From: an uncultured Flavobacteriales bacterium
GTDB lineage: Bacteria > Bacteroidota > Bacteroidia > Flavobacteriales_D > Crocinitomicaceae
Direction: 5' to 3'
Assembly: GCA_913020765.1 (NCBI GenBank)
Contig: CAJWAO010000002.1
Coordinates: forward strand, 1 to 64,000
Length of the DNA stretch: 64,000 bases
Shown: positions 23,220-62,531 of the stretch, piece after piece
Layout: each line of letters begins with the position of its first letter
How positions within the stretch are numbered: the first letter of the stretch is position 1
Position numbers and translations under genes: made by a program
Notes under the pieces: model-generated
Told to the model about the DNA's origin: nothing
Databases searched by the model: none
Seen by the model: the letters and a program-made list of their open reading frames with translations, nothing else

Positions 23220-23249
23220 CAAAAATATAAATGAAAAGTTTACCTCAAA
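23220..23249 (-). promoter_or_regulatory. Promoter of the uncharacterised 136-aa gene
   Basis: On the minus strand, TTTG (23246-23249) is followed after 18 nt by TATTTTTG (23220-23227). The ATG lies 32 nt further on. Confidence 0.6.
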
Positions 23250-23417
23250 TACCTTTATCATGGTATTCTCTTTTTTTTAGATTCAAGGCCTGAGGTCAAT
23301 CATACTTTTTTGGATTATATGTAACACATAGCCTAGGTCTGCTATTAAAATATAAACACGCAATAAGTTGATATATTCAAAGATTTTCAAGATTTTTAGG
23401 TTCTAAATTATCTCAAC

Positions 23418-59809: not shown

Positions 59810-61171
<1,362 letters not shown>

Positions 61172-61199
61172 TTGTAATATTCCCTAAGAATTTTATCTA

Positions 61200-61229
61200 A
61201 TAGCGCAGGTCCTCTTGCGCTATTTTTTT
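61200..61229 (+). terminator. Rho-independent terminator of gdhA
   Basis: TAGCGCA pairs with TGCGCTA around an 8-nt loop and leads into seven T residues, 28 nt after the stop. Confidence 0.92.
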
Positions 61230-61273
61230 GCCCAATTTATTTATTTTCCCAGATTTACTCTTTCGAAAGTAAC

Positions 61274-61281
61274 TATCTTTG
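61274..61281 (+). promoter_or_regulatory. Candidate -7 promoter element of the 48-aa gene
   Basis: TATCTTTG is a full consensus match, 45 nt past the gdhA terminator and 19 nt before the ATG at 61301. Confidence 0.55.
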
Positions 61282-61300
61282 TTTCAATAATTTCTGAGTA

Positions 61301-61447
61301 ATGTCCAGCATAGAACAGTCTATTTCCGATTCGAAGAGTTTGGATTTATTTTCAACTGATTGCTCGCTTTCCTGCCAGAAAAAAAAGAAGTGCTGTAAGA
61401 AATACAAAAAGAAAGGCTATGCGTGTAAAAAGTGTCCGAAGTTTTAG
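61301..61447 (+). CDS. 48-residue cysteine- and lysine-rich protein (too short for the ORF track)
   Basis: ATG at 61301 to TAG at 61445-61447. The first 20 residues are ordinary and acidic/polar (MSSIEQSISDSKSLDLFSTD). The remaining 28 carry six cysteines (CSLSCQ, KCCKK, ACKKCPK) among 13 lysines, a pattern expected of a small metal-binding or nucleic-acid-binding protein. A full TAnnTTTG box precedes it by 19 nt and the gdhA terminator isolates it from readthrough, both of which favour a real gene. Its stop is 1 nt from the gcvT stop on the other strand. I vaguely recall a similar KKYKKKG-CKKCPK ending in other Bacteroidota; no function is known to me. Confidence 0.7.
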   Translation: MSSIEQSISDSKSLDLFSTDCSLSCQKKKKCCKKYKKKGYACKKCPKF

Positions 61448-61448
61448 G

Positions 61449-62531
61449 TTAACTTTTGTAAAAGGGTAGTTTGACTACTTTCGCCTTTAGCATTTTGTTT
61501 CGAACCGCTACATAGATTTCAGTATTCAGTTTATTTAAGGGCAAATTGACATATCCAAGTCCAATTCCCACTTTTAAAGAAGGAGACATTGTTCCAGATG
61601 TCACTTTCCCGATACAGTTTGATTCAGCATCGAAAATTTGATAATCTTTTCTTGGAATACCCCGATCGATCATTTCAAAGGCAACAAGTTTTTTGGTAAC
61701 ACCATCTTCCTTCTGCTTCTTTAAAAAATCGCTATCCACAAAGTCTTTTGTGAATTTCGTAATCCATCCAAGACCAGCCTCCAATGGTGATGTTTCGTCA
61801 TTGATGTCATTTCCGTATAGGCAGAATCCCATTTCTAAACGAAGCGTATCTCTCGCAGCAAGACCAATTGGTTTTATGTTAAATGCCTTACCAGCCTCAA
61901 AAACGCTATCCCAAAGTTTATTGGCATCTTTGTTTCTCACATAAATTTCAAATCCACCAGAACCAGTATATCCTGTGGCCGAAATCATGACATTCTCAAT
62001 ACCTGCAAAACGATTGTTTTCAAAGGTATAGTAAGTCATATTACTGAGGTCGACCTCTGTTAGGCTTTGCATTGCTTTTGCAGCATCTGGACCTTGTATT
62101 GCGAGCAATGAGTAATCATCGGAAACATTGGCCATCTCGACACCTAAGTCATTTTGTGCAGAAATCCATTCCCAATCTTTTTCAATGTTAGATGCGTTGA
62201 CCACCAAGAAGTATTCGTTTTCGTTTATTCGATAGATGATTAAATCATCAATAATTCCGCCTTTCCCATTGGGCATACAGCTATACTGGGCTTTTCCGTC
62301 GTAAAGTTTTGAGGCGTCATTAGATGAAAACCTTTGAATTAGCTCCAAAGCTCTGTCTCCTTTTAAAATGAATTCTCCCATGTGTGAAACATCAAAAACA
62401 CCAACTCCATTTCGGACGGTTTCATGTTCTATGGTAACACCCTCATATTGAACTGGCATTGCATATCCTGCGAATGGTACCATCTTGGCGCCTAAGGCAA
62501 TATGTCTTTCAGTGAGCGCTGTATTTTTCAT
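61449..62531 (-). CDS. gcvT: Glycine cleavage system aminomethyltransferase (T-protein)
   Basis: 360 aa, normal length. Signatures: [16 protein letters not shown] (about 17-32), [16 protein letters not shown] (about 44-59), the folate-site region [23 protein letters not shown] (about 187-198) and [17 protein letters not shown] (about 227-243). It transfers the methylene group from the H-protein aminomethyl-lipoyl arm to tetrahydrofolate. It follows efp by 3 nt, so the two are one transcript; no other gcv gene is in the window, but lpdA (the L-protein) is. Confidence 0.97.

Follow-up and report, generated by a model that had tools for sequence, protein, structure and literature searches.

A 48-codon open reading frame lying between gdhA and gcvT in an uncultured Flavobacteriales bacterium (Crocinitomicaceae) is a real gene, and its family is widespread in Bacteroidota, apparently unnamed and absent from the protein-family libraries searched. 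The family appears to be part of the iron-starvation regulon of the phylum. As most members are Fur-boxed and the four cysteines fixed in the family are like those of the Fe-S tail of FhuF, a part in iron or electron handling under iron scarcity is probable for the small protein. The link to the iron regulon and the FhuF-like cysteine pattern of this gene are new here. The window, i.e. the whole stretch of 64,000 nucleotides that was analysed, comprises bases 1-64000 of contig C2 in a genome of 2.1 Mb (114 contigs, 88.6% complete). Genomes with Weeksellaceae-like loci share no rank below the class with it, so that an order other than Flavobacteriales, the one named in the preliminary description, is probable. 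The features around the gene are the following.

59816..61171, + strand: gdhA, NADP-specific glutamate dehydrogenase, the upstream neighbour of the small gene.
61199..61231, + strand: intrinsic terminator of gdhA, with an 11-bp stem (61199-61224) and then a T run, conserved in the relatives G058 and G026.
61274..61281, + strand: -7 promoter box TATCTTTG, which fits the Bacteroidota consensus TAnnTTTG.
61281..61299, + strand: decayed sequence GTTTCAATAATTTCTGAGT, at background level, in the place of the Fur box of close relatives (GTTTAGAATNATTCTAAAT).
61301..61447, + strand: the small gene, 48 aa, ATG start, TAG stop, MSSIEQSISDSKSLDLFSTDCSLSCQKKKKCCKKYKKKGYACKKCPKF.
61449..62531, - strand: gcvT, glycine cleavage aminomethyltransferase, the convergent neighbour.

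The frame was present where the preliminary description had placed it, and the -7 box indeed lies exactly 19 nt before the ATG. TAnnTTTG is the -7 consensus in F. psychrophilum (PMC9723704). Such a box precedes the start in most family copies (the closest sister, G058, reads TATCTTTT), which bears out the earlier proposal that the gene has its own promoter. The insulation from gdhA by a strong terminator also held, as this terminator is the best in the region and separates the two genes. It should be noted that gdhA neighbours the small gene at other loci as well (L003-L007, L010, L016-L019, L025), and that the convergent gcvT arrangement was observed only in the window clade. The gcvT gene ends at 61449, leaving the 1-nt gap between the two stops that had been reported, and no - strand terminator was found. 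Antisense transcription from gcvT across the small gene, as suggested previously, is compatible with the sequence, but it would be specific to the window clade, the gene heading an operon elsewhere. The protein is basic, with a pI of about 9.5. Its last 28 residues contain six cysteines, as had been counted, together with 12 lysines; the 13 lysines formerly assigned to this segment are those of the whole protein.

The length of the frame alone is no evidence for a gene, because dozens of frames of 30-80 aa lie nearby. It stands above chance because the frame and the C-terminus are conserved, the dN/dS ratio is about 0.11 and the operator is conserved in relatives. In a search of 100 relatives, homologues were found in 44 genomes at E<=1. 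Within the genus, about 24 of 60 genomes gave matches at E<=1e-3, every one of them with an intact frame. When 396 genomes of the phylum were searched with a profile, 18 gave a match (17 besides the window's own), other families included, and at least one Acidobacteriota MAG has a member. Two loci from the phylum search were left out of the family counts, L080, which is not member-like, and L084, which has an internal stop. All homologues share CC-x8-10-CxxC in a lysine-rich C-terminus, their N-terminus being variable, and they measure roughly 40-60 aa (about 33-75 aa depending on the start). In the 31-row alignment, C31, C32, K36, C42 and C45 (window numbering) are invariant, the four cysteines being those fixed throughout the family, and K30, K33, K34, G39, K43 and P46 are conserved in at least 90% of rows. 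The spacer between CC and CxxC is 9 residues in 18 of the 31 members, 8 in 12 and 10 in one.

We then considered selection on the gene. Its closest relative, in G058, is 88% identical, with a dS of 0.60 and a dN of 0.066, giving the low ratio mentioned above. Residues 24-48 differ from G058 by five synonymous changes and no amino-acid change, and the N-terminal half evolves faster. Few substitutions underlie these figures, yet they clearly point one way: the small gene is under purifying selection. Loss of the frame and frameshifts in close relatives were looked for, and the frame proved to be conserved, so that the earlier suggestion of an unannotated real gene stands. That the stretch is merely intergenic with a chance frame, or holds a non-coding RNA or leader element, has next to no likelihood. 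Equally long frames are indeed numerous nearby, and the small protein had no match at threshold in Pfam, NCBIfam or PDB; against this, many genomes lack frame breaks, the ratio is low, and start, promoter and operator are conserved in relatives. A chance frame was rejected on frame conservation and low dN/dS, and no Rfam element was matched at the site, which argues against a non-coding RNA. No literature on the peptide motif was found.

The gene is patchy within the genus and is dispensable on that account. Spread by plasmids was also considered, and was rejected as no plasmid match was found with a Weeksellaceae-type member.

Within the genus the layout of the upstream region is fixed, a TAnnTTTG box being followed by GTTTAGAATNATTCTAAAT and then by the start codon. 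A Fur box (ATTTAGAATTATTCTAAAT) was found at a level of at least 15 of 18 positions upstream of 31 of the 43 copies, which span several families and include close relatives, and are thus not 43 independent events. Elsewhere in the same loci, none of 95,284 positions reached this level. The box is that of Riemerella anatipestifer, 5'-ATTTAGAATTATTCTAAAT-3', whose promoter fragments were bound by purified Fur in EMSA (PMC5609570); the abstract of that paper prints a classical E. coli-type box, whereas ATTTAGAATTATTCTAAAT appears in the results text, in Table 5 and in the discussion. Fur evidence has also been described for a further Riemerella promoter (PMC10986502). Overall, most copies carry a Fur box, and the family seems to be under iron-starvation control; from these boxes we infer that scarcity of iron induces it.

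A recognisable box has been lost at the window copy and in G058: the best match upstream of the window copy is 12 of 18 positions, which is background, and G058 is likewise without one. The genome itself encodes Fur-family proteins and has near-perfect Fur boxes elsewhere. The operator having decayed in the window clade, expression there may therefore no longer follow iron. In 12 same-genus genomes, Fur-box sites with at most one mismatch number 0-5 per genome. The other genes behind them, named by eye from sequence like the operon neighbours below, encode TonB receptors, HmuY-like, DUF4856/imelysin-type and sufS-like proteins, c-type cytochromes and a response regulator, or are nqrA.

Apart from the small gene, the layout of promoter box, Fur box and start codon recurs at the gene of a LuxR-type response regulator in four same-genus genomes (L041, L047, L052, L054), which suggests that this regulator is iron-controlled. 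Fur-box-like sites also lie before nqrA and before a c-type cytochrome gene resembling an alternative complex III subunit (L036, at C1:5800 of the window's own genome, L038, L053, L056; L034, L044, L050, L051, L058, L060, L062, L066). Parts of the respiratory chain may accordingly be under iron control in the genus.

Outside the window clade, most loci of the genus have the small gene in first place, followed by genes for an exported protein of about 175 aa and a lipoprotein of about 263 aa resembling glycerophosphodiester phosphodiesterase (GDPD-like). The genes upstream of this three-gene unit vary (gdhA, gyrA/parC-like, glyA, a DEAD helicase gene, an OmpA-like gene). G015 and G019 have no small gene at the site equivalent to that of the window copy, where the pair for exported protein and lipoprotein lies between gdhA and gcvT; a genome-wide site scan gave no Fur box there. 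The pair is also kept in G042, again without the small gene and without a Fur box. Window-clade genomes have retained the small gene alone, its partners being absent; no lipoprotein homologue was found in any of the six. The Fur box thus travels with the small gene: it persists after loss of the partners, and loci that lack the small gene lack the box too. Outside the genus the small gene is usually alone, and in the Acidobacteriota MAG it starts 27 nt behind a TonB-receptor gene.

The two-gene unit of exported protein and GDPD-like lipoprotein was gained or lost independently of the small gene (L006, L008, L010-L016, L019-L023; L107, L108, L111). Glycine-metabolism neighbours were observed at three unlike sites, namely gcvT in the window clade, gcvP (L087, L089) and glyA upstream (L105), and this proximity may be coincidence.

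A second palindrome, ATACC-N8-GGTAT, was found with at most one mismatch at five copies, all from other families. At one of the five it occurs together with a Fur box, so that 35 of the 43 copies carry one or the other site. It also precedes sufA-like, feoB, TonB-receptor and DUF4856 genes, and is modestly enriched (4-8 per genome against 2-3 for the control), several sites lying inside genes. Loci with this palindrome, often beside a Fur box and including HmuY-like genes, are L130, L131, L135, L141, L142, L144, L145, L148 and L152; within the window, one site separates two divergent genes (23249-23266).

The same palindrome precedes a ZnuA/MntA-like gene in the window's own genome (L137), as might be expected if the small protein were an iron-starvation-induced zinc-binding module or metal buffer, metallochaperone-like, serving general metal homeostasis. 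Zinc, like an Fe-S cluster, can be bound by four cysteines arranged as CC and CxxC. We nevertheless consider a zinc module unlikely, as the operators are mainly found at iron and Fe-S genes and, as a weaker point, the motif is in register with that of FhuF and not with a generic Cys4 pattern.

The lead to FhuF was a single match to TIGR03950 (siderophore ferric reductase C-terminus) at E=0.11. FhuF, itself Fur-derepressed, binds a [2Fe-2S] cluster through CC-x10-C-x2-C, a pattern described as unprecedented (PMC8068687); the C-terminus of the E. coli protein reads CCQRYRLPDVQQCGDCTLK. When the family profile was compared with one built from seven FhuF C-termini (from E. coli K-12 and plasmid records), the motifs aligned in register, with E=0.0017 and a probability of 15%. 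After shuffling of all columns, 0 of 150 permutations scored as high as the real alignment, and with the cysteine columns fixed 2 of 150 did. No family member matched the FhuF_C model (PF11575) at E<=10, searches of PDB and Pfam, FhuF_C included, gave no match to the family, and none of 40 relatives had FhuF_C above the cut-off. One FhuF_C match in G021 (L085) was judged to be chance, being short, below the cut-off and in an open frame of 20 aa. The AlphaFold model of the small protein is weak (pLDDT 61), too weak for a fold search. The likeness to the FhuF motif is suggestive and is not proof of common descent. Given this suggestive match and the different spacer, the small protein may work like the cluster region of FhuF and was not filed as a FhuF member.

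The charge of the protein could be read in another way. The lysine-rich face might bind RNA and aid an iron-stress sRNA, the cysteines forming a zinc or redox-sensing structural site, by analogy with Bacillus FbpB, a basic, Fur-regulated protein of 48 aa suggested to be an RNA chaperone (PMC7430163). The size of 48 aa, the pI and the Fur box of relatives all match FbpB. Such an iron-sparing helper seems to us rather improbable, however, for it is the four cysteines and not charge alone that are most conserved, and RNA binding by FbpB itself is only suggested (PMC7430163).

Taken together, these observations are consistent with an iron-starvation-induced, stand-alone Cys4 mini-protein that binds an Fe-S cluster or iron and acts as an electron carrier or in iron handling, a reading to which we give about an even chance. 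Its metal cofactor and its part in electron or iron handling are what we infer. The family would consist of small basic proteins, without an evident signal peptide, that are produced under iron scarcity. For most members, Fur with plentiful iron would block transcription at or near the promoter, and starvation would release it. The CC-x8-10-CxxC motif would most likely hold an Fe-S cluster or iron, after the C-terminal [2Fe-2S] motif of FhuF, and the lysine-rich face could dock on a negatively charged partner. When iron is limiting, the small protein would then serve as a minimal carrier of electrons or as a factor that handles iron. More tentatively, and with somewhat less confidence, the family may be a phylum-wide set of mini Fe-S proteins that stand alone and use the rare ligand set CC-x8/9-CxxC, a Fur-controlled counterpart of the FhuF cluster region that replaces FhuF in Bacteroidota as electron carrier or iron-release factor.

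If an Fe-S cluster is carried, the CC-type [2Fe-2S] motif of FhuF-type reductases would have a second context in the family, which would also provide a candidate for the cytoplasmic iron-release step in relatives without FhuF. The small gene also offers a simple entry point for functional study in culturable Bacteroidota.

Comparison with known systems places the family closest to FhuF in motif. Both have a vicinal CC ahead of a CxxC close to the C-terminus, basic and aromatic residues occupy matching places (R-x-CC-x-R-Y-R in FhuF, K-K-CC-K-K-Y-K in the small protein), and Fur control applies, to FhuF and, judged by the box, to the small-gene family. In contrast, FhuF has about 260 aa with a helical core catalytic domain, whereas the small protein has about 50 aa without a reductase domain, and the spacer is 10 in FhuF but 8-9 in the family, with 10 in one member. 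In Bfd, the bacterioferritin-associated ferredoxin, a CxC and a CxxC about 32 residues apart provide the ligands; this spacing is absent from the small family, all 31 members of which have CC-x8-10-CxxC. Bfd is likewise a small iron-starvation protein with four cysteines (PMC12363616). Finally, FbpA, FbpB and FbpC of Bacillus subtilis are small, basic and Fur-regulated like the small-gene family, a comparison made by size, charge and regulation only; set against them, the invariant Cys4 core is the hallmark of the family.
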